Shown: piece after piece, positions 2,043-27,003 of the stretch
Position numbering within the stretch: the stretch's first letter is position 1
Layout: the number at the start of each line of letters is the position of its first letter
DNA from: a virus
Length of the DNA: 27,825 nt
Direction: 5' to 3' (one strand)
IMG/VR virus record: IMGVR_UViG_3300042475_002930
Coordinates: 1 to 27,825 of that record
Translations under genes and position numbers: made by a program
The notes under the pieces: generated by a model
Told to the model about the DNA's origin: nothing
What the model saw: the letters and a program-made list of their open reading frames with translations, nothing else
Database searches by the model: none

Positions 2043-2668
2043 GCAAAGCTACCGGATACAGGGTTCTCAACGAACACATGGTCATCCCCGGCGGATGGCA
2101 TTACCGAGTTCCTGAGACTGGCATTGAAATCATGGGCGGATCATGGCCGCAGCTCCATGAGTTCGTCCGCAACCATTACACGGCGAACGCGATTCCAATT
2201 CCAAGCAACCTCGACACTTTAATCACCGAATATGCGTGTCGTAACGGTGCCGACTGCGCTTACAACGAGGTTGAACTTCCAAAACCCGAAGGTCGAAAGT
2301 CACTCCAGATCGGAGATGTCATCCGATTCAGCATGAGTTTGCTTCATGGCCTGACTGTTGGCGGCGGAAAAGTCGATCAGGCGGAGGCAAATCGACGCGC
2401 CAGCATCTGCTCAGGCTGTCGCTTCAATCGCAAACCACTTGGATGCACCGGATGCAACGCTCGCGTCCTCAAGGAGGCTGTAAAAACCTTCTCGCAGCAC
2501 GGCAATACGCCGTATGACGAGCAGGTTCAGAGCTGTGAATTTTGTGGTTGCTTTATCAGAAGCATGGTGTGGTTTCCCATTGAAACACTCCATAAATTTA
2601 CGGACGCTACAGAGAACGAAAACCTTCCGGCTCACTGCTGGAAAAAACGACCATGTACGGAAACCTAG
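2039..2668 (+). CDS. Cysteine-rich putative zinc-binding protein
   Basis: A 209-residue protein of unknown function between terminase and portal, overlapping both (ATGA with the first, 16 bases with the second). Its C-terminal half has paired cysteines: CSGC (124-127), CTGC (136-139), CEFCGC (166-171) and HC at 199-200, with C67 and C73 further upstream. This pattern suggests one or two small zinc-binding units. The N-terminal half has no recognised motif. Position in the packaging/head operon suggests a role in DNA packaging or head assembly, but that is inference from context only. It is not a recognisable small terminase, because no helix-turn-helix is evident. Confidence 0.8.
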   Translation: MSKATGYRVLNEHMVIPGGWHYRVPETGIEIMGGSWPQLHEFVRNHYTANAIPIPSNLDTLITEYACRNGADCAYNEVELPKPEGRKSLQIGDVIRFSMSLLHGLTVGGGKVDQAEANRRASICSGCRFNRKPLGCTGCNARVLKEAVKTFSQHGNTPYDEQVQSCEFCGCFIRSMVWFPIETLHKFTDATENENLPAHCWKKRPCTET

Positions 2669-4902
2669 CCCAACTGCCGCTTGAAACCATCAACGAAAAC
2701 GGCAAAGCGCCTGAAACGCGCATAGCCGATGCGGCATCAGCTCGCGAAATTTTCCAGAAGCTGATCATGGCCGATCAGTTGCGGAACGTGACGCGCGCCA
2801 AGTTGCGCGGTCTTGTTGATGGTAACCCTCCGTACAATCCTGCCGAACTGCGTCGTAACAACCAAGCGTTCCGAACCAATGTGAACTTCCGTGAATCGGA
2901 AGCGTTCCTCACGTTGGCCATGTCTGCCTTCTACGATGTGTTCGCCGAGGTTCCGACCTACGCCAACATTCGCACCGCTTACGGCAACGACATGGATAAG
3001 CGGGAGGAGTGGTCGAAGATCATTACCGAGGAATTCGACCGTCTCCAGAAGATGGACAAAGACTTCGACTACCTCATGCAGCTCTCGCAGCGTGAGATGG
3101 TCCTTATTGGCGATGGCCCGTTGATTTTCGAAGACAGCACCGATTGGCGGTGTAAGGCTATCATGGCGACGGATCTTCTCGTTCCAGATGGAACCAAGTC
3201 GAACGTCAGCGACTGGAAAGTGGCTGCTGTCCGAACCCGCATGGGTGTCGATGATCTTTTCGAGAAGATTCAAGACGAGGAAGCCGCTCGCGCCGCCGGT
3301 TGGAACGTGGATTACGTTCGCCAGCGTATTCGCGCTGCGATGCCCGAGCCGTATCGCTCCGGCGTCCAATACGATTGGGAGTTCTTCCAGCGTCAGCTTC
3401 GCTCGAACGACATCACGTTCTCGGCTCGCTCCGAAGTGGTCTTGATGTGCCACATCTTCTACAAGGAGTTCGATGGTCAGATCAGCCATGTCATCATCGA
3501 TGAGCGTGACAGCGAGGACTTCATGTACAAGAAGCTGCGACGCTTCAGCCGGTGGGAACAGGTTATCCATCCGATGTACTACGACCGTGGCGATGGCGAG
3601 CATCACGGCGTCAAAGGCTTGGGCATCAAGATGCTCCAGGCGATGGAACTGAAGAATCGTCTGCGTTGCTCGATGGTTGATAGCGCATTCGCTCGCACCC
3701 AGATTCTCTTCCGCCCTCTCAACCCGAACGCTCTGAGCAAGACGAGCGTCGTTCAGCAAGGACCGTATGCCATTCTCCCGCCCGACTACGAAGTCATTCA
3801 GCAAAACATTGCTGGCGTTCTGGACGCTCCTATGGCGGTCAACGCGGACCTTGAGAATGTTCTTCAAGGCAACCTCTCTCAGTATCGCCAATCGCTCAAC
3901 AAGCCGTCGGGCAATCCTCGTACTGCCACCGAAGTCCAAGCCATCGTGGCACAGCAGTCAGCAATCGGTAAGACGCAGTTGAGCCGGTATTACAACCAGT
4001 TGGATTCTTTCTTCGAGGAGCGGTACAACCGCGCCTCAAACCCCAATCTGAACCCGATTACAAAGTCGGACAAAGACGCCATCGAATTCCAACGTCGATG
4101 CAAGGAGCGTGGTGTTCCTGTTCAGGCGATGATAGACATCGATTACGTTGAGGCGACTCGCACGGTCGGCCAAGGTTCTCAATTCGCGAAGCAGCAGCTT
4201 CTCGGGACTTTGCTCGGTCTTGCCGGTTCTCTTCCCGAAGGCGGAAAAGTCAACCTGCTCAAGGACTACATCGCCGCTCAGGTTGGCCAACAAATGGTGG
4301 ATCGTTATCTGCCTACTCAGATGCAGTCTGCTCGCGTTCAAGATCAGGCCGCTCTTGCCGTGCTGGAGCATTCCTCGCTGCGCCAAGGCAACATGGCAAT
4401 CGTCACCGATACGCAGAACCACATCGTTCACATCGACACGCATCTTGCTGCCGCGAACGAGGCTGCTGCATCGCTTCAACAGGGTGGAAATCCGCAGGAG
4501 ATTGTCCTCTTCCTCCAAGGCATCGGTCAGCACGTTCAGCAGCACTTGCAGCGCCTGTCCACCGATCCTTCACGCCGTCCGCAGGTCGAGGCTTACACGC
4601 AGCAGCTCCAGATGCTTAGCCAGACCATCGAGCAGCTTGGCCAGTTGATTCAGGAACAGGCTCAGGCAATGGCGCAGCAACAGCAGGCAATGGCGATTCA
4701 GCAGGGTGTCGATCCGAAGACCGCTGTTCTCAACGCTGAAGTTCAGGCAAAAATCGCTCGCCAGAATGCCGAGGTTATGGCCAACATCCAGCGTCAGAAC
4801 ACGAAGGCGATGGCAGACCTGTCGCGCCGGAATGCGAAGACCACCGCTGATATTCAGCGAGCGAATGCAACTGCCGAGTCTAACTTGGCGCGTCAGGGAT
4901 GA
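2653..4902 (+). CDS. Portal (head-tail connector) protein
   Basis: Predicted dodecameric ring at the capsid vertex through which DNA is packaged. At 749 residues it is as long as large P22- or podovirus-type portals, and it sits directly after the terminase. The body is rich in aromatic and charged residues and has no transmembrane segment. The last ~170 residues are almost wholly helical and Gln/Ala-rich, ending in four 11-residue repeats (A699-M709, A710-M720, A721-T731, A732-E742, then a half repeat), which could form a long helical barrel. The ATG at 2653 lies inside the previous gene and the stop overlaps the next gene as ATGA. Assignment rests on position, length and overall character rather than one diagnostic motif. 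Confidence 0.8.
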   Translation: MYGNLAQLPLETINENGKAPETRIADAASAREIFQKLIMADQLRNVTRAKLRGLVDGNPPYNPAELRRNNQAFRTNVNFRESEAFLTLAMSAFYDVFAEVPTYANIRTAYGNDMDKREEWSKIITEEFDRLQKMDKDFDYLMQLSQREMVLIGDGPLIFEDSTDWRCKAIMATDLLVPDGTKSNVSDWKVAAVRTRMGVDDLFEKIQDEEAARAAGWNVDYVRQRIRAAMPEPYRSGVQYDWEFFQRQLRSNDITFSARSEVVLMCHIFYKEFDGQISHVIIDERDSEDFMYKKLRRFSRWEQVIHPMYYDRGDGEHHGVKGLGIKMLQAMELKNRLRCSMVDSAFARTQILFRPLNPNALSKTSVVQQGPYAILPPDYEVIQQNIAGVLDAPMAVNADLENVLQGNLSQYRQSLNKPSGNPRTATEVQAIVAQQSAIGKTQLSRYYNQLDSFFEERYNRASNPNLNPITKSDKDAIEFQRRCKERGVPVQAMIDIDYVEATRTVGQGSQFAKQQLLGTLLGLAGSLPEGGKVNLLKDYIAAQVGQQMVDRYLPTQMQSARVQDQAALAVLEHSSLRQGNMAIVTDTQNHIVHIDTHLAAANEAAASLQQGGNPQEIVLFLQGIGQHVQQHLQRLSTDPSRRPQVEAYTQQLQMLSQTIEQLGQLIQEQAQAMAQQQQAMAIQQGVDPKTAVLNAEVQAKIARQNAEVMANIQRQNTKAMADLSRRNAKTTADIQRANATAESNLARQG

Positions 4903-5630: not shown

Positions 5631-6177
5631 TCGAATCTACCTGACAGACGAGTGGAATGGAGGATCTGGCCCAGGTTCTCAGCCACAAAACACCGCAAAA
5701 TACGTCAAGTTTCTCAACTCGTTCATCCGAGAAAACAAGATCAAGTCGATCTTGGATGTCGGCTGCGGAGACTGGCAGTTGATGTCGATGATTGATCTGT
5801 CTGGGGTTCGCTACAAGGGCATCGATGTCAGTCCGGTTGCGACGGCATTCGCGAAATCAAAAGCTCCGCTTGGAACCGACATCAGCACCGATAGCATCGA
5901 AGACATTCAAGAATCGTTCGACCTCGTTCACATCAAGGATGTCTTGCAGCATCTTGAGTTTTCAGAGTGCCGAAGGATTCTCGAAATCATCTCCACTCGT
6001 CACAAGTCGGCATTGATCGTAAACGAACATCCCGGTGCATCGAACGACATTCAAAACGGTCAGTTCAGGCCGCTGAGCATTACCGCAGAGCCTTTGTGTT
6101 GGCCACGGTCCACGGTCATCAAGGTGTTCACGAATCCTCTTTTCAGAAAGTCAGTCACCTATATCCACTCAAAATGA
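5611..6177 (+). CDS. Class I SAM-dependent methyltransferase
   Basis: A 188-residue Rossmann-fold methyltransferase. Motif I is LDVGCGDW (48-55), the acidic end of strand 2 is GIDVSP (D72), and strand 4 is seen in FDLVHIKDVLQHL, all typical of the small Methyltransf_11/25 type. It overlaps the glycosyltransferase upstream by 20 bases and the next methyltransferase by ATGA. Enzymes like this often methylate sugars or lipids in polysaccharide clusters, and the neighbours suggest a sugar substrate. That is inferred; no residue here fixes the substrate. Confidence 0.88.
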   Translation: MLQNIFDRIYLTDEWNGGSGPGSQPQNTAKYVKFLNSFIRENKIKSILDVGCGDWQLMSMIDLSGVRYKGIDVSPVATAFAKSKAPLGTDISTDSIEDIQESFDLVHIKDVLQHLEFSECRRILEIISTRHKSALIVNEHPGASNDIQNGQFRPLSITAEPLCWPRSTVIKVFTNPLFRKSVTYIHSK

Positions 6178-6797
6178 GCAGCCAATACGATGCGCTTAGA
6201 AATTTTGTCGCCGACCAATTTCCGAAAATGGGCGGTTGGTGCGACGTTGAAAAAGGATTTCAAATCGGAAAGCTGGTCATCGACAGCAAGCCGCAACGAA
6301 TCGCTGAAGTTGGAGTCTTCGAAGGCAAATCCACATTAGCACTGGCCTACGCCTGCAAGCTCAATGAAAGCGGCTCCGTCTACGCTATTGATTCTTGGAA
6401 GAAAGAGGACTGCATCGACGACGAGAACAGCGGCAATCAAGAGTGGTGGTCGAAAATCAATCTTGAAGGCCACTACGAGGCTTTCGTTGGCCACTGTGTT
6501 CGCGCGCAGCTTGTGAAACACATCCAATTCTGCCGCATGTCCTCATGGGATGCGTCGCGATTCCTGCCCGACATGGACATGGTTCACATCGACGCCAATC
6601 ACGCCGAATGGCCGTCTACGAGCGATGTCGTCAACTGGCTTCCGAAGCTCAAGGTTGGCGGTTACATCGTGATGGACGATGTGAATTGGGAATCGACGCA
6701 GACTGCGATTCGATTTGTGGAAAAATACTGCACCCTGATTCAGCGGTATGACCTCAAAGAAAGCGTATTTTCAATTTATCAAAAGACCAAAAAATGA
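6174..6797 (+). CDS. Class I methyltransferase of the Methyltransf_24 / cephalosporin-hydroxylase-like type
   Basis: A 207-residue protein with a SAM-binding loop AEVGVFEGKSTLALA (from A44), a second strand with YAIDSW, and VHIDANHAEW (D140, H143) followed by GGYIVMDDVNW. The combination of EVGVFEGKST and HIDANH is characteristic of the methyltransferases often found with glycosyltransferases in polysaccharide clusters and giant-virus or phage genomes. The acidic pair in MDDV may bind a metal, as in related O-methyltransferases. The start at 6174 is chosen because it gives an ATGA overlap; the frame is open further upstream inside the previous gene. It differs from the preceding methyltransferase and is not a duplicate. 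Confidence 0.88.
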   Translation: MSSQYDALRNFVADQFPKMGGWCDVEKGFQIGKLVIDSKPQRIAEVGVFEGKSTLALAYACKLNESGSVYAIDSWKKEDCIDDENSGNQEWWSKINLEGHYEAFVGHCVRAQLVKHIQFCRMSSWDASRFLPDMDMVHIDANHAEWPSTSDVVNWLPKLKVGGYIVMDDVNWESTQTAIRFVEKYCTLIQRYDLKESVFSIYQKTKK

Positions 6798-14543: not shown

Positions 14544-15782
14544 TTAGCTGCAAATGATCTGGGTCAAAGCTCCGGTGCAACGACGGAAGATGATGGTCAT
14601 GCCCTGGTTGGTGAAAACAGGCTCAGAAGCGTGAATGAACTCAGCGTAATGCTGACCCTTCTTCTCCAACGGATCTTCGCAGTCCGTATTGAACTTGTAG
14701 GCACCCGTCACCCACTGCCACTCGCCCATGTAGTTGGTCGGCATCCAGCTCAAATCACCAACACGGTTCACAGGACGCACGATGTGCGACTTGAACACAT
14801 ACGGGGTGACGATGAACGCAGCCTCGAACGGGGCGGTCGTCCAGCTCGAGTTGACGCTGAACACCGTACCCTTGGTGCCACTGGAGCTGGTAAACGGCTG
14901 AACCAACGTGTACTTGCCGCCAGCGTAGGTGAAGCGGGGCGGGAACAGATTCGGAACGTGCCGGAAGTTCTTAATCACCCGATTCGCGCCAATGCGCTTA
15001 AGCAACTCAGCGCCGCTGCCGCTGCCCATATCAGCCTGACGCAGATCCTCACGGAACGCGGGGTTGTTCTGAGCGATGCGCTGCGAAGCCTCCAGACCGA
15101 TGTAGAGCGGGAACACCGGGCCGTCGCTGCTGTAGCTGATGAAGCCAGAGCTATCAGGATTGGTAGCGCCGTTGCGGATCAGCGTGGCGGCGGCGACATC
15201 GAGCATCTCCTGAGTCAGCTCGGAGGTGGACTGATTGAGCGCCTGACCAGCGGAGCCGGTCTGAATCCAGGGGAACTCATTCACGCCAGACGGAATCGTC
15301 TCAACCTGAGTGAAGGACGAGTCGGCCACAGCCTTGATGGCGAACTTGGCGAAGGTGTTCTGGTAACGAGTCTCCCAAGAACGCTGCGCGCGGATCGAGA
15401 GCTTCTCCAAGTACACGCGCAAGAACGCCTCGACGCGATGGTCGAAGGTCAAATCGTCCTTACACAGGAGCGGACCTTTGAGGGCGAAACGCTCAGGACT
15501 CCAGGTGACGGCATTAAAACCGACCGGAACGTCATTGTAGGTGACATCGCAAGCGCCACCGTTCTCGCCGCTGGCGAGCGTGATGGCCGACCACTCCTCA
15601 GCCGCAGTCGGCTCGATGCTGGTCGTGTTGTACGAGGTCTGGGTCAGACCAGTACCCTGAGGATACTCGCCGCGCTCAATCATGTTGAGCCACATCGAGC
15701 GGTACGAGGCGCGTTTATAGACGTCCTGCGCGAGCGACTCAGTAGCCACTGCGAAGGCGTTGAAGACATTAGGACAAGACAT
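14544..15782 (-). CDS. Probable major capsid protein
   Basis: A 412-residue protein with no signal peptide. It is likely the main shell protein, by length, by its own strong terminator and separate leader, and by character: a helical N-terminal arm (NVFNAFAVATESLAQDVYKR), a long helix region (LRVYLEKLSIRAQRSWETRY), a Gly/Ser-rich middle and a beta-rich C-terminus (WMPTNYMGEWQWVTGAYKFN, then HASEPVFTNQGMTIIFRRC). I recognise the sequence type from uncultured phage capsid proteins, but there is no single diagnostic motif. It is encoded opposite to terminase, portal and scaffold, which is unusual. No Shine-Dalgarno; a ~200-base leader precedes it. Confidence 0.72.
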   Translation of the reverse strand: MSCPNVFNAFAVATESLAQDVYKRASYRSMWLNMIERGEYPQGTGLTQTSYNTTSIEPTAAEEWSAITLASGENGGACDVTYNDVPVGFNAVTWSPERFALKGPLLCKDDLTFDHRVEAFLRVYLEKLSIRAQRSWETRYQNTFAKFAIKAVADSSFTQVETIPSGVNEFPWIQTGSAGQALNQSTSELTQEMLDVAAATLIRNGATNPDSSGFISYSSDGPVFPLYIGLEASQRIAQNNPAFREDLRQADMGSGSGAELLKRIGANRVIKNFRHVPNLFPPRFTYAGGKYTLVQPFTSSSGTKGTVFSVNSSWTTAPFEAAFIVTPYVFKSHIVRPVNRVGDLSWMPTNYMGEWQWVTGAYKFNTDCEDPLEKKGQHYAEFIHASEPVFTNQGMTIIFRRCTGALTQIICS

Positions 15783-15979
15783 GAGATTATGAAATTAAAC
15801 CGACGTTATCTGCGTTATGGTTGGCCATCTATCCACCACACGGTGGCTGATTATCCAACCTACTACATGCGGAGTGTCATTGCCGCTTAGACGGTTTTGC
15901 GATGGCTGACCAAGCCTCCGCATTGCTTAAGGTCGTTACGCGCACTGACGCACAAGGGCGACTAAAGTGTCAATCACAA
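15783..15979 (-). promoter_or_regulatory. Leader and probable promoter region of the capsid gene
   Basis: About 200 bases between the nuclease-like gene and the capsid gene. On the minus strand TTGACA (15973-15968) is a good -35 but no clear -10 follows at 17-18 bases. A small hairpin, CCACC-ACAC-GGTGG on the plus strand (about 15835-15848), lies in the leader. A 42-codon minus-strand frame (15795-15923) fits here but shows no protein-like features. A long leader for the most abundant late message would be expected to carry control signals; none is certain. Confidence 0.35.
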
Positions 15980-21108: not shown

Positions 21109-21449
21109 TTACCGGAACGAACGGACCCTACACTGGGTACGAAATCCAAATGATCGTCGAAAAGAAATATCGGGACGACTCGTTGAAGGCTCGGAATTTA
21201 TCTTTGGCCGAGTTGCTGGAAAGGCTGGAATCTGTGCGTAAACGGAATTTGGACGCAATCGCTGGCGAGTCAGCCACACGCCTCGCGCATGTGTCCGCTG
21301 CATTATCCTGCCTTGAAGACGCGCTTTTCTACGTCCGCATGTATCGGTCAGCCGATAATACAGGCGAGGGCGAAAAGCGACGCCAGGAGCTGATCGACGA
21401 CTCGGAAATGATCATCAACCTGATTCGCACCGGAGGACTCTACCCATGA
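21105..21449 (+). CDS. Unrecognised 114-residue helical protein (GTG start)
   Basis: A mostly helical protein (ARNLSLAELLERLESVRKRN, then SATRLAHVSAALSCLEDALF) with no recognised family. GGAGGATGCGCC before the GTG is a good Shine-Dalgarno at useful spacing, and GTGA overlaps the previous stop, so the start is well supported. GGAGG near its end serves the next start. Confidence 0.68.
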   Translation: MITGTNGPYTGYEIQMIVEKKYRDDSLKARNLSLAELLERLESVRKRNLDAIAGESATRLAHVSAALSCLEDALFYVRMYRSADNTGEGEKRRQELIDDSEMIINLIRTGGLYP

Positions 21450-21703
21450 TCCGCAATCTATTCGCCCCGCCCCGCTTTAAGGTTCAAATCAGCGGCGCGA
21501 TTGGCTGGAGCGATTTGAAGGAACGGGTCGTCCGTTTCGAAACGCTCGAATACGCGACGCGCAAGGAGGCGGAAACGACAGCGCGAGAACTGAACCCCGG
21601 CGAGTACACTCAGGGCCGCATCCGCGTCGTCCCGGTCGAAGTGCCGGAGGATTACGATGTGTATCCGGTCGTGGAGCGAGTGAGCGAAAAGCATTCAACA
21701 TGA
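21446..21703 (+). CDS. Unrecognised 85-residue protein
   Basis: A small protein (MIRNLFAPPRFKVQISGAIG, then WSDLKERVVRFETLEYATRK, EAETTARELNPGEYTQGRIR). The pattern of strand, helix with EAET, and strand ending in RVVPVEVPED looks like a small alpha/beta fold such as is seen in phage proteins that resemble DUF1508/YegP-like domains, but this is not secure. GGAGGACTCTACCC precedes the ATG, and ATGA overlaps on both sides. Confidence 0.68.
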   Translation: MIRNLFAPPRFKVQISGAIGWSDLKERVVRFETLEYATRKEAETTARELNPGEYTQGRIRVVPVEVPEDYDVYPVVERVSEKHST

Positions 21704-22557
21704 GTGATACATGGATACTTCCAAAGCAGTTACACACCTTGGCCTATGCGCTGGATACGGAGGCATTGAGCTTGGACTTAAACGAGCAATCCCAAGTCTG
21801 CGCTCAATCGCTCTTTGTGAGGTCGAAGCCTTTGCCATTGCGAACCTGGTTGCGAAAATGGAAGCGGGACAACTGGAGCCAGCACCTGTTTGGCCGAATC
21901 TTAAAACCTTCCCTTGGCAATCGTTTCGCGGATGCGTGGATATCCTCACTGGCGGCTACCCATGCCAGCCCTTTAGCGCGGCAGGAAAACGACAAGGAGC
22001 AGACGACCCGAGACATCTCTGGCCATACATCGCAAGAGGAATTCGGATTCTTCAGCCAAGACTCTGCTTCTTTGAGAACGTCGAAGGACATATCTCGCTG
22101 GGGTTGTCCGACGTCATCGAAGACCTGGCAGGAATGGGTTATCGAACGACGTGGGGCATATTCAGCGCGTCTGAATGCGGTGCGCCTCACCAACGCAAGC
22201 GGGTGTTCATCTTGGCCAACCGCATCGGCGCGGGATGGGAAGGATTCGCCGGGAGCATGGATGTATGCGGTGACGGATCGGAATCGGGAGGATCAGTTGG
22301 CCAGAAAGGTTTACGCGGTCGAGTTTGGCCGAGCCGTCCTAGCGGAGACAACCGATGCGAATGGGAACCACCCCGTGTCATCGACATATCGCCTGAATCC
22401 GAGATGGGTGGAGACATTGATGGGGATACCCGTTGGATGGGTTATGCCCACTGGGAATCCCTATCGGATTACGAGCGGCTATGCCACGCGCATGACAGCC
22501 GCATCGACGAACTTCGTCTCCTCGGAAACGGTGTCGTCCCAGCTACCGCCGAGTTAG
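21700..22557 (+). CDS. Alternative-frame protein overlapping the cytosine methyltransferase
   Basis: A 285-codon frame lying across nearly all of the Dcm gene in another register. It begins with an ATGA overlap to the previous gene, the coupling used all through this genome, so translation is plausible. It looks like a genuine family: LHTLAYALDTEALSLDLNE, RSKPLPLRTWLRKWKRDNWS, SLRTSKD, ASGCSSWPTASARDGKD (166-182) and LNPRWVETLMGIPVGWVMPT (232-251). I recall similar 'SSWPT.TARD...LNPRWVE.LMG.P.GW' proteins in phages, often overlapping or beside Dcm genes; LNPRFVEWLMGxPxGW is also known in stand-alone proteins. The function is unknown, perhaps assisting target recognition. If the frame is only a by-product, its motifs would have to be dictated by the Dcm codons. 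Confidence 0.5.
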   Translation: MSDTWILPKQLHTLAYALDTEALSLDLNEQSQVCAQSLFVRSKPLPLRTWLRKWKRDNWSQHLFGRILKPSLGNRFADAWISSLAATHASPLARQENDKEQTTRDISGHTSQEEFGFFSQDSASLRTSKDISRWGCPTSSKTWQEWVIERRGAYSARLNAVRLTNASGCSSWPTASARDGKDSPGAWMYAVTDRNREDQLARKVYAVEFGRAVLAETTDANGNHPVSSTYRLNPRWVETLMGIPVGWVMPTGNPYRITSGYATRMTAASTNFVSSETVSSQLPPS

Positions 22558-22601
22558 CGTATCGAACTCTTGCGCGAGAACTTGTCGAAAATCACGGATA
22601 A
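21711..22601 (+). CDS. DNA cytosine-5 methyltransferase (Dcm-type)
   Basis: A 296-residue enzyme transferring methyl from SAM to cytosine C5. The motifs occur in order: I, HLGLCAGYGGIELGL (10-24); IV, GGYPCQPFSAAG with catalytic C85; VI, FFENVEGH (E122-N123-V124); VIII, HQRKRVF (160-166); X, LLGNGVVPATAE (270-281). The stretch between VIII and X is only about 100 residues and poorly conserved, so the target-recognition domain is small. The role is probably protection from restriction or DNA marking. No partner endonuclease is evident. The DNA also codes in another frame from 21700. The start lies 8 bases after the previous stop. Confidence 0.92.
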   Translation: MDTSKAVTHLGLCAGYGGIELGLKRAIPSLRSIALCEVEAFAIANLVAKMEAGQLEPAPVWPNLKTFPWQSFRGCVDILTGGYPCQPFSAAGKRQGADDPRHLWPYIARGIRILQPRLCFFENVEGHISLGLSDVIEDLAGMGYRTTWGIFSASECGAPHQRKRVFILANRIGAGWEGFAGSMDVCGDGSESGGSVGQKGLRGRVWPSRPSGDNRCEWEPPRVIDISPESEMGGDIDGDTRWMGYAHWESLSDYERLCHAHDSRIDELRLLGNGVVPATAELAYRTLARELVENHG

Positions 22602-24004: not shown

Positions 24005-24271
24005 ATGAAAGTTTATACGGCCAAGGCCACAGCAGCGATGCTCCAAATCTGCACCGAGACGCTAAGGCGAATCGTTCGCAATGACGGCATCCAGCATAGG
24101 AGAATTGGCCGACGAATCCTTTTCACGGAAGCCGACATCGCGGCGATTCTTGAGAGTCGAGCAATGACCGGAGCTGTGAATCCGTACGCAAAGAAGACAA
24201 ACAAACAACCGCAGATAGAGAACACAACCTATGAGCAACCAAGCAGCAACATTGACGGTAATCGCGCCTAG
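24005..24271 (+). CDS. Excisionase/MerR-like helix-turn-helix protein
   Basis: An 88-residue DNA-binding protein. Residues 1-55 (MKVYTAKATAAMLQICTETL, RRIVRNDGIQHRRIGRRILF, TEADIAAIL) form the winged helix of the HTH_17 / excisionase family: helix, TLRRIVR recognition helix, and the RRIGRRILF wing. Such proteins act as phage regulators or excisionases; no integrase is visible here. The C-terminus is polar and disordered. It overlaps the annealing-protein gene by 41 bases, so it may control or share the recombination transcript. Confidence 0.78.
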   Translation: MKVYTAKATAAMLQICTETLRRIVRNDGIQHRRIGRRILFTEADIAAILESRAMTGAVNPYAKKTNKQPQIENTTYEQPSSNIDGNRA

Positions 24272-25061
24272 CCAGCCTCAACCGCTGGAGCAGCCGCAAT
24301 CAGGAGCAGAGTTCTATTCCCAGGCATGCACGTCGCTGGACGCCGTGAAGCAGCTTGGCGAGTGGATGGCACACTCTGGACTCTTTGGTCTGACCAAACC
24401 GGAGCAAGGATTCGTTCTAGCTCTTGAGTGCATCGCCAGTCGCCAAACGCCGCTGACGTGGAAGAAGTCCAATCACGTCATCAATGGCCAGATAGCCATG
24501 AAGTCCGAGGCGATGCTGTCCGGATTGATGGATGCGGGTTGGGAAATTGATTGGGTGCAATTTGACTCTCAAGCGGCAATCGCTGATTTCTGCAAAGGTC
24601 AGAAGAAAGTCAGAATTTCATTCACCGCAGAAGACGCGAAGCTGGCCGGACTGCTTCCTGCGAAACCCGGCAGCGGATGGCAGAAGTTCCCGGCGGCGAT
24701 GATGCGCGCACGTCTGGTGAGTCTTGCCACCAGGATGCTCGACCCTCGTATTACGCAAGGTCGATATTGCGTGGAAGAAGTGGCCGACTTCTCCGCCACC
24801 CCATCAACACCCGCTCAACCCACTCAAACGCGCCAGACAGTCAATGTGACGCCGGAATCAACCTTCTCGCTTGTAGAGAAACTGGAGCAGATTCTTGAGC
24901 CACATTCTGACATCGCCAATGCGTTCCTGCTCTCGAAGAACCTCATCAAGGAAGGTCAGAACTTCCGCGATGTCTCGACCAAGGTGGCCAACATGATCGT
25001 CTCCGATCCTGATGGCTTCATCGCCAAGGCCAAAGCGTTCTCAGCCCCGACAATCGAATGA
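24231..25061 (+). CDS. RecT-like single-strand annealing protein
   Basis: A 276-residue phage recombinase that would anneal single strands. Diagnostic features are AHSGLFGLTKPEQGFVLALE, ASRQTPLTWKKSNHVINGQI, AMKSEAMLSGLMDAGWEIDW, and WQKFPAAMMRARLVSLATRM followed by YCVEEVAD; the 'GLFG...Q...LALE...PL...NHVI.GQ...K.EAMLS...' and 'K.P..M.RAR..S...R' series is the one I know in RecT/Redbeta-type proteins of phages. The N-terminal ~25 residues are low complexity and the C-terminal third is helical. Directly coupled (ATGA) to the exonuclease gene, it forms a classical RecET-like pair. Confidence 0.85.
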   Translation: MSNQAATLTVIAPSQPQPLEQPQSGAEFYSQACTSLDAVKQLGEWMAHSGLFGLTKPEQGFVLALECIASRQTPLTWKKSNHVINGQIAMKSEAMLSGLMDAGWEIDWVQFDSQAAIADFCKGQKKVRISFTAEDAKLAGLLPAKPGSGWQKFPAAMMRARLVSLATRMLDPRITQGRYCVEEVADFSATPSTPAQPTQTRQTVNVTPESTFSLVEKLEQILEPHSDIANAFLLSKNLIKEGQNFRDVSTKVANMIVSDPDGFIAKAKAFSAPTIE

Positions 25062-25852
25062 GCATTCTAAACCGACACATCAATTACGACATGCCAGCCG
25101 AGAAGTATCACGCCGTTGACGCTCTCTCCAAAAGCATGATGTCCAAGATCCTTAAGTCACCGGCGCATTACAAAGCCGCGCTGGACGAGCATCAGGAGCC
25201 GAGCAAGGCTATGCAGCTTGGCACGGCGATTCATACCGCTGTTCTCGAACCGCATCTGTACTCGCAGGTTGTCGCCGTGATTCCTCCGGACATCGACGGT
25301 CGTACCAAGGAAGGCAAAGCGTGGAAGGAGCAGCACAAGTCACGCATTCACCTGACGCATGCCGAGGACATCGATGTGCAGGGAGTCGCGAACAGCGTTC
25401 GAAAGCATCCGTTCTGGGACATCATTCATCTCAACCACAAGATCGAAGCCAGCGTGTTTGCCGAGGACGAGGAAACCGGCATTCCCCTCAAAGCTCGCCC
25501 CGATCTTTGGGTCGAGGACCATACCCTGGTCGATGTGAAAACAACGGACGACGCATCGCCTGAAGCGTTCAGCCGCACAATCACCTCGTTCGGCTACCAC
25601 ATTCAAGCCGCTCACTATCTGGCGATGACCGGAGCAGAGTCTTTCATCTTCGTTGCTGTCGAACGCAAGGCTCCGTATGCCGTTGGCATCTACCGGCTCG
25701 ACATCGAATGGCTTCAGGCCGGTGAGAACCTTCGTAGGAAGGCAATCTCAACGCTCCACGAATGCCGCGCACTGGACAGTTGGCCATCCTACCCAACGAC
25801 GACCATCACACTTTCATGCCCAAAATGGGTGCTGAATAAATCGGAAAACTAA
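25058..25852 (+). CDS. RecE/YqaJ-like PD-(D/E)XK exonuclease
   Basis: A 264-residue nuclease, partner of the annealing protein. Motifs are SKSMMSKILKSPAHYKAAL, GTAIHTAVLEP (55-65, with H59), GIPLKARPDLWVED (D149) and LVDVKTTDDASPEAF (D159-x-K161), then GYHIQAAHYL (Q-x-x-x-Y). This is the PD-(D/E)XK arrangement with an N-terminal GxxxH motif, as in RecE C-terminal (DUF3799) exonucleases that chew 5' ends to give single-stranded DNA. The start overlaps RecT by ATGA. No Shine-Dalgarno is needed for coupled translation. Confidence 0.88.
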   Translation: MSILNRHINYDMPAEKYHAVDALSKSMMSKILKSPAHYKAALDEHQEPSKAMQLGTAIHTAVLEPHLYSQVVAVIPPDIDGRTKEGKAWKEQHKSRIHLTHAEDIDVQGVANSVRKHPFWDIIHLNHKIEASVFAEDEETGIPLKARPDLWVEDHTLVDVKTTDDASPEAFSRTITSFGYHIQAAHYLAMTGAESFIFVAVERKAPYAVGIYRLDIEWLQAGENLRRKAISTLHECRALDSWPSYPTTTITLSCPKWVLNKSEN

Positions 25853-25863
25853 ACCTAACAATT

Positions 25864-26286
25864 ATGTTCAAAGTCAATCGTAAGGACGCCGGAGGCAGCT
25901 ACATCAATGCTGAAGGCGAGTACACTGTCACCGTGATGAAGGTCGAGGAAACGCTCGACGCCAAGGGCCGCGAGGTCTGCAAGGTGACGTTCGCAACCGA
26001 AGACGGATCGAGCATCGCCGACCGTTTCATCAACCAGGAGAACGTCTGGTTCCGTGTGAACCAGCTTGTCGCCGCCACCAACCACAATGTGCCGGATGGA
26101 ACCGAGGTGGACTTCCTCGGCAAGAAGGGAAGCTACGCCAACTTCCTCAAGTCGATGATCGGTCTTGAGCTTACAATCGTCGTTCGCGCTGAAGAGTACG
26201 ACCTGAATGGCGAGAAGAAGAAGGCGTATCGCATCAAGGCGATGAAGCCTGCCGTGGCCACGGCCCCAGAAGAAAAGCCGTTCTAA
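25864..26286 (+). CDS. Probable single-stranded DNA-binding (OB-fold) protein, DUF669-like
   Basis: A 140-residue beta-rich protein (MFKVNRKDAGGSYINAEGEY, TVTVMKVEETLDAKGREVCK, VTFATEDGSSIADRF, then SYANFLKSMIGLELTIVVRA). The layout, EGEYTVxVxKxExx.Kg...KVtF..., resembles DUF669-type proteins that accompany phage recombinases and bind single strands. It ends in TAPEEKPF: acidic residues followed by Pro-Phe at the very C-terminus look like the SSB tail that recruits partner enzymes (inference). Its gene follows the exonuclease by 11 bases with AACCTAACAATT, no Shine-Dalgarno. Confidence 0.75.
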   Translation: MFKVNRKDAGGSYINAEGEYTVTVMKVEETLDAKGREVCKVTFATEDGSSIADRFINQENVWFRVNQLVAATNHNVPDGTEVDFLGKKGSYANFLKSMIGLELTIVVRAEEYDLNGEKKKAYRIKAMKPAVATAPEEKPF

Positions 26287-26302
26287 TCCAAAACAGGGAG
26301 GG

Positions 26303-26325
26303 GTGCGTATTCCCTGATAACGCAC
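26303..26325 (+). other. Small hairpin between the SSB-like gene and thyX
   Basis: GTGCGT (26303-26308) pairs with ACGCAC (26320-26325) across an 11-base loop ATTCCCTGATA. It lacks a T-run, so it is not a standard terminator. It sits 31 bases before the thyX start, whose leader (ACGCATCCAATTCGTATCC) lacks a Shine-Dalgarno but carries ATCCAA. Confidence 0.4.
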
Positions 26326-26355
26326 AACCAATTCTAACGCATCCAATTCGTATCC

Positions 26356-27003
26356 ATGAAAGTCAAACTTGTAGCTATCACAAAACCCCTTGTCGGCGAC
26401 GGGACAATGACCGCGTCCGATTTCATCACGTTCGCCGCCCGTGTCAGCAATCCGAGCAATCAGATGAGTCTGCTCACCGCTCCAAAACTACTGGCCTACT
26501 GCATCAGGCATGGCCATTGGAGCATCTTTGAACAGGCGAGCATGACGGTCGAGATTCAGACGAGTCGTGCTATCTCCGCCCAGATCATTCGCCATCGCAG
26601 CTTCTGCTTCCAAGAGTTCAGCCAGCGATATGCACCGACCGATACTGCCGAGCTGGTTGAGCTTCGCACCCAGGACCGTGTTAATCGCCAGGGAAGCGGA
26701 GAGGTTTATCCGCAAGAGTGGGCCAACGAAGTTGTCGCCAAGTCGGTCGATTTGGCTTTCAGGACATATCGAACGCTGATCAATGAGGGTGTGAGCCGAG
26801 AGACTGCTCGGATGGTTCTTCCGCTCTGCACTCACACGACACTCTACATGACCGGCAACATCCGCTCATGGATTCATTACTTCGAACAGCGTTGCGCCAA
26901 GGGTACGCAGAAGGAGCATCGCGACATCGCCGAGGCTATCCGCGACACGATTTTCGCTGTCGAATTCCCGCACATTCACAACGCATTGCAGGAGGCGAAA
27001 TGA
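26356..27003 (+). CDS. thyX: Flavin-dependent thymidylate synthase ThyX
   Basis: A 215-residue enzyme making dTMP from dUMP with FAD, NADPH and methylene-THF. The signature RHRSFCFQEFSQRYA matches the ThyX motif RHRxxSxxxxSxR, except that the first serine is cysteine (RHRSFC). The later ALxLP-type part is seen in SRETARMVLPLCTHTTLYM, and SWIHYFEQRC is typical. Length and motif order are normal. It supplies thymidine for phage DNA, independent of the host. The next gene overlaps as ATGA, with GGAGG inside its last codons. An SOS-type regulator site is not visible. Confidence 0.95.
   Translation: MKVKLVAITKPLVGDGTMTASDFITFAARVSNPSNQMSLLTAPKLLAYCIRHGHWSIFEQASMTVEIQTSRAISAQIIRHRSFCFQEFSQRYAPTDTAELVELRTQDRVNRQGSGEVYPQEWANEVVAKSVDLAFRTYRTLINEGVSRETARMVLPLCTHTTLYMTGNIRSWIHYFEQRCAKGTQKEHRDIAEAIRDTIFAVEFPHIHNALQEAK

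Follow-up and report, generated by a model that had tools for sequence, protein, structure and literature searches.

A phage C5-cytosine DNA methyltransferase very probably split between two overlapping reading frames

To our knowledge, long conserved same-strand overlaps have rarely been established in dsDNA phages and bacteria. In M.EcoHK31I, the beta frame reportedly (Lee, Kam and Shaw, 1995) lies inside the alpha gene, in another reading frame. M.EcoHK31I is a working two-polypeptide C5-methyltransferase in which alpha carries motifs I-VIII and X as well as the predicted target recognition domain, while motif IX alone resides on the smaller polypeptide (PMC3404938). In M.AquI, the beta polypeptide carries both IX and X (PMC3404938). 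The ShiLan domain of mycobacteriophage methylases is an out-of-frame protein inside a phage methylase gene (PMC11855218), and recognition domains in tandem have been described for Bacillus phage enzymes (PMC8936443).

The locus described here lies in a viral DNA stretch of 27,825 nucleotides (IMG/VR record IMGVR_UViG_3300042475_002930), the whole of which is called the window. The initial annotation had noticed two long overlapping frames on the same strand, and both are present as claimed: beta, of 285 amino acids (21700..22557, plus strand), and the Dcm frame, alpha, of 296 amino acids (21711..22601, plus strand), each with an ATG start. Beta starts 11 nt upstream of alpha, is offset from it by +1 and has 847 nt in common with it. 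The ATG at 21700 overlaps the stop of an upstream gene of 85 amino acids and unknown function (21446..21703, plus strand) as ATGA, again as described. Alpha has the features of a C5-cytosine methyltransferase catalytic subunit. Read directly on the plus strand, these include motif IV, PCQPFS with the catalytic cysteine (21960..21977), motif VI, ENV (22074..22082), motif VIII, QRKRVFILA (22191..22217), and a motif X region running from LRLLGNGVVPATAELAYRTL to the C-terminus (22512..22598), which is also supported by a PHROG 1008 match. Beta consists of a helical N-terminal part, one recognition cassette and motif IX. The cassette, WPTASARDGKDSPGAW...VSSTY (22213..22389, plus strand), sits at the target-recognition position; motif IX, LNPRWVETLMGIPVGW (22393..22440, plus strand), is coded in the beta frame only. 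The bases of motif VIII, read in the +1 frame, run into SSW, the start of beta's first cassette.

Elsewhere, the window encodes a terminase large subunit (291-2042), a second DNA methyltransferase-like gene (5967-6797; PHROG 2675, E 1.5e-14) and, downstream of the locus, RecT-like, exonuclease VIII and thymidylate synthase genes (24231-27003). Long antisense open frames also lie over large ORFs, at 14544-15782 (minus) versus 14631-15890 (plus) and at 2737-3939 (minus) versus 2653-4902 (plus); none of these four paired ORFs has a PHROG match.

Alpha and beta, two proteins from one stretch of DNA, very probably make up a single C5-cytosine DNA methyltransferase. Both would be translated from neighbouring starts and bind each other. 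Alpha, in frame 0, would bind AdoMet and attack cytosine through its AdoMet and catalytic motifs I-VIII and the closing motif X, while beta would supply recognition and motif IX in trans. The N-terminal helical part of beta, read over the alpha catalytic domain, is probably the part that binds alpha. The assembled enzyme may protect phage DNA from host restriction. The original proposal, in which some 850 bases encode two proteins that are both made, perhaps a catalytic unit with a helper, thus finds support in the stop tests, the substitution pattern and the distribution of motif IX described below.

Alpha matches PF00145 (E 9.6e-32 over alpha 10-173), aligns to M.HhaI 17-173 and holds motifs I-VIII and X, including the catalytic PCQ and ENV, ending in motif X (LRLLGNGVVPATAELA). 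The Dcm frame had been credited with all main motifs, and in this respect the initial annotation needs correction, as motif IX is absent from alpha between VIII and X and is found in the second frame. The element LNPRWVETLMGIPVGW, which had been flagged there as resembling methyltransferase-linked phage proteins, is indeed present on the plus strand, and it is this missing motif IX. In actinophage relatives such as Rita, the same element occurs in the alpha chain directly before motif X. The profile match between beta IX and monomer-type IX reaches 97% probability. A monomer-type profile puts the element colinearly on M.HhaI 273-307, the IX-X stretch, with a score of -2.4 bits that is not significant alone. 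A structure model of one monomeric relative (pLDDT 84) has M.HhaI and M.HaeIII as its best PDB matches.

Related loci were collected by scanning IMG/VR with the second frame and with Dcm (80 loci each, contigs partly shared); many came from beta as query, and one scan used alpha. All collected loci with an intact alpha were then sorted by the frame that carries IX, and stops were counted from motif IV to motif X. Where IX is found only in the +1 frame (135 loci), there are 3 stops in that frame versus 364.6 expected, and 132 of the 135 loci are stop-free. Where IX is in alpha (13 loci, including one with a chance second match), 61 stops occur versus 79.5 expected and the frame is open in none of the 13. 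The +2 frame is near its expected stop number in all groups. The three exceptions among the 135 are marine contigs with one TAA, one codon and then an in-frame ATG (TAA-AAA-ATG), so that a shorter beta with cassette and motif IX keeps its own start. The rule from these counts is that the beta frame stays open if alpha is without IX but is not preserved if alpha has its own.

This rule bears on the strongest alternative, that beta is a real overlapping protein with some other job, as a regulator, in anti-restriction or acting alone, and not a methyltransferase subunit. Such a role is unlikely, though beta is poor in informative domain matches beyond PHROGs named after methyltransferases. It matches PHROG 1008 (named DNA methyltransferase) with E 2.2e-18, and the C-terminus of that cluster matches alpha 260-295; searches of PDB, Pfam and NCBIfam gave no match. 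AlphaFold, given 71 sequences, yields a poor model of beta (mean pLDDT 50), which was read for helix content only. Against an independent role, the motif IX missing from alpha sits in beta and is kept exactly where alpha is without it. In monomeric relatives, the alpha chain itself contains LPTP-type cassettes, then IX and X, an unchanged order, and the beta of one relative, L033, has motif X in addition. Among the loci, no stand-alone beta lacking an overlapping alpha was established; the one case with a broken alpha, L353, is on a short contig.

A second alternative is that programmed frameshifting joins the frames into one chain, passing from VIII in frame 0 to the cassette and IX in +1 and back to X in frame 0. 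Some relatives do have C9/C10 or G9/G10 tracts where the frames exchange, but in the window the sequence shows no tract of this type at the junctions, and two opposite shifts would be needed. Beta, moreover, has its own ATG just upstream of alpha. In 65 of 67 distinct leaders, this ATG lies 2-14 nt upstream of the alpha ATG or GTG in a constant frame relation, and about half have a Shine-Dalgarno match of at least 4 bases. Selection on beta also spans its whole length, including the part upstream of any shift, and a frameshifted single chain is very improbable.

The openness of the second frame can be compared with what the Dcm protein alone would allow. When the synonymous Dcm codons of the window were permuted, the +1 frame acquired 5.7 stops on average, and not one of 1000 permutations left it free of them; under the genome's own codon usage, its openness has P = 0.002. 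The +2 frame holds 12 stops versus 11.5 expected. The openness is not a product of chance, which had already been judged unlikely, and the codon constraint that had been left as a possible cause is also excluded. The same permutation over 104 non-redundant Dcm homologues, outgroups included, gives 50 stops versus 531 expected in +1 and 1485 versus 1511 in +2, while the antisense frames have 576 versus 576, 687 versus 693 and 1543 versus 1334. Stops are thus depleted in the +1 frame only, and most of the 50 probably lie past beta's natural end or in outgroups.

The depletion persists among distant lineages. When the alphas are clustered at 80, 60 and 50% identity, 55, 20 and 9 beta-type lineages remain; these have 1, 1 and 0 stops in +1, versus 138.5, 51.3 and 20.3 expected, whereas monomer-type controls at the same levels have 51, 24 and 11 versus 64.4, 24.1 and 10.0. 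In the most distant comparison, therefore, nine beta-type lineages less than 50% identical have no +1 stop where 20 are expected. One further set of stop counts is zero by construction and was not used as a test. The refuting condition set at the outset did not hold: across hundreds of loci, relatives with an intact Dcm gene lack second-frame stops; the exceptions are the loci whose alpha has its own motif IX and the three marine contigs in which an ATG follows the stop. On the strength of these stop tests, the second frame is a real, selected protein-coding gene.

The substitution pattern differs along the overlap. Across 73 distinct sequences of the motif IX region, pairwise differences amount to 0.119, 0.043 and 0.415 at beta codon positions 1, 2 and 3; they fall mostly on beta position 3, so that LNPRWVETLMGLPVGW is preserved while the Dcm frame drifts. 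For the cassettes, which lie between VIII and IX, the corresponding values are 0.060, 0.055 and 0.203, and protein divergence is 8.5% for beta versus 24% in the Dcm frame; for the window's cassette type, it is 7% and 11%. Here the Dcm frame is mostly a passenger, and variation in the second frame goes beyond what Dcm codon constraint would give, since the changes in IX and the cassettes fall on the third position of the second frame. Purifying selection seems to act on both frames over motifs I-VIII, which is the weaker part of the evidence. By two estimators, NN/NS and SN/SS, beta w is 0.44-0.57 and 0.25-0.28, with 0.44-0.48 and 0.25-0.26 among close pairs, compared with 0.66-1.01 and 0.67-1.13 in simulated nulls without amino-acid constraint on beta and 1.4-2.0 in the +2 frame control. 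Simple codon-position ratios over these motifs are no different between beta-type loci and monomer-type controls and were dropped as evidence; it is accordingly the stop test and the four-class substitution test that support selection on beta over I-VIII. That the second frame is only a shadow of the Dcm gene, open through the Dcm protein and its codon usage and yielding no product, is hardly credible: shadow similarity is real, as named actinophages match the second frame weakly despite +1 stops, but the codon permutations contradict it, motif IX and the cassettes are conserved against the Dcm frame, and the frame is not preserved in controls whose alpha has motif IX.

Within the preferred reading of alpha and beta as one enzyme, beta probably provides target recognition in addition to motif IX, since its cassettes show conservation at the level of the beta protein. 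In the window's family, each beta contains 1-6 W-x-T-P modules, reused in differing orders between loci (one in the window) and located between VIII and IX, where target-recognition domains sit. This position and the shuffling of cassettes favour the helper for target recognition suggested at the outset, a predicted role in which the cassettes would recognise DNA. More tentatively, and with somewhat less than an even chance, beta may be an exchangeable specificity subunit laid over a catalytic gene. Specificity would then change by the swapping of cassettes open in two frames, and poly-C or poly-G tracts would in some lineages switch which protein receives which C-terminus.

Several relatives differ by a single base in such tracts inside the cassettes, with C10 in L031, L032, L034, L035, L043 and L046 versus C9 in L110, L133 and L040, and G10 in L040, L061 and L068 versus G9 in L034 and L036. 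These one-base homopolymer differences exchange the alpha and beta C-termini, through phase variation, slippage or assembly error. Frame-exchanged relatives were considered as independent evidence of subunit exchange, and this argument is weakened because most cases are C9/C10 or G9/G10 differences that may reflect slippage or assembly error; only L033 is free of this doubt. In L033, where the Dcm ORF extends to 3905 and beta covers 2998-4017, X has come to lie in beta through a change of frame between it and IX, and no homopolymer tract was seen there. Some actinophage methylases extend over two overlapping ORFs in different frames, namely Llama gp74/gp75 (L160), Jarcob gp69/gp70 (L005) and Float294 gp62/gp61 (L162), and may represent either decay or working split enzymes.

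The same arrangement is found in Verrucomicrobia genomes (L165-L167), on a Sphingomonas plasmid, where RefSeq calls beta a hypothetical protein, on Shinella and Roseicitreum replicons, and in Pseudomonas, Xanthomonas, Enterobacter and E. coli K1 phages or plasmids. Two Synechococcus phages also have it, one record annotating beta and the other alpha, as does an Acidovorax phage whose 'cytosine-specific methyltransferase' CDS is beta. The K1G and K1ind1 records list both ORFs, with the inner one named 'Mte8-like' or a second DNA methyltransferase. The overlap, 285 codons in the window, reaches about 490 in relatives. The double reading recurs in a large group of phages and prophages, most of it unrecognised, whose hosts include Verrucomicrobia, Alphaproteobacteria, Gammaproteobacteria, cyanobacteria and others, under a simple rule that places motif IX in alpha or in beta. 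As annotation pipelines choose alpha for some genomes and beta for others, phage methyltransferases are described with a part missing. This bears on the reading of phage methylomes, on the expression of these enzymes, since an alpha produced by itself may be inactive, and on the origin of overlapping genes.

Among described systems, M.EcoHK31I (and M.EaeI), compared by their described features, are the closest precedent. The phage alpha likewise has I-VIII and X without IX, motif IX is on a second, smaller polypeptide here too, and this polypeptide is read, as reportedly in M.EcoHK31I, from another frame of the alpha gene, over 847 nt in the window. In contrast to the recognition domain predicted in the alpha of M.EcoHK31I, the phage cassettes are conserved in the beta frame and drift in the alpha frame. 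M.AquI is similar in having two polypeptides with motif IX on the smaller, but the window has its X in alpha, and the M.AquI-like order, with X in beta, occurs only in L033. Escherichia phage K1G has the same kind of overlap between ORF31 (C-specific methylase) and a nested +1 ORF30 ('Mte8-like'). The latter resembles beta in its WPTPTA cassette and LNPAHSRWLMG motif IX, although it is shorter and starts 88 nt inside alpha. ShiLan differs in being an inserted HNH homing endonuclease, whereas beta reads the methylase sequence itself a second time. PHROG 1008, which beta matches, is a sequence cluster with no described overlap or mechanism, and the open-access literature, to which the search was confined, yielded no description of this overlap in phages. 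Relative to M.EcoHK31I, the phage- and prophage-borne beta begins ahead of alpha and covers almost its entire length. What would be new is that the overlap is nearly complete, that the cassettes belong to the beta frame, that the place of motif IX follows a rule, and that the arrangement is widespread among phages.
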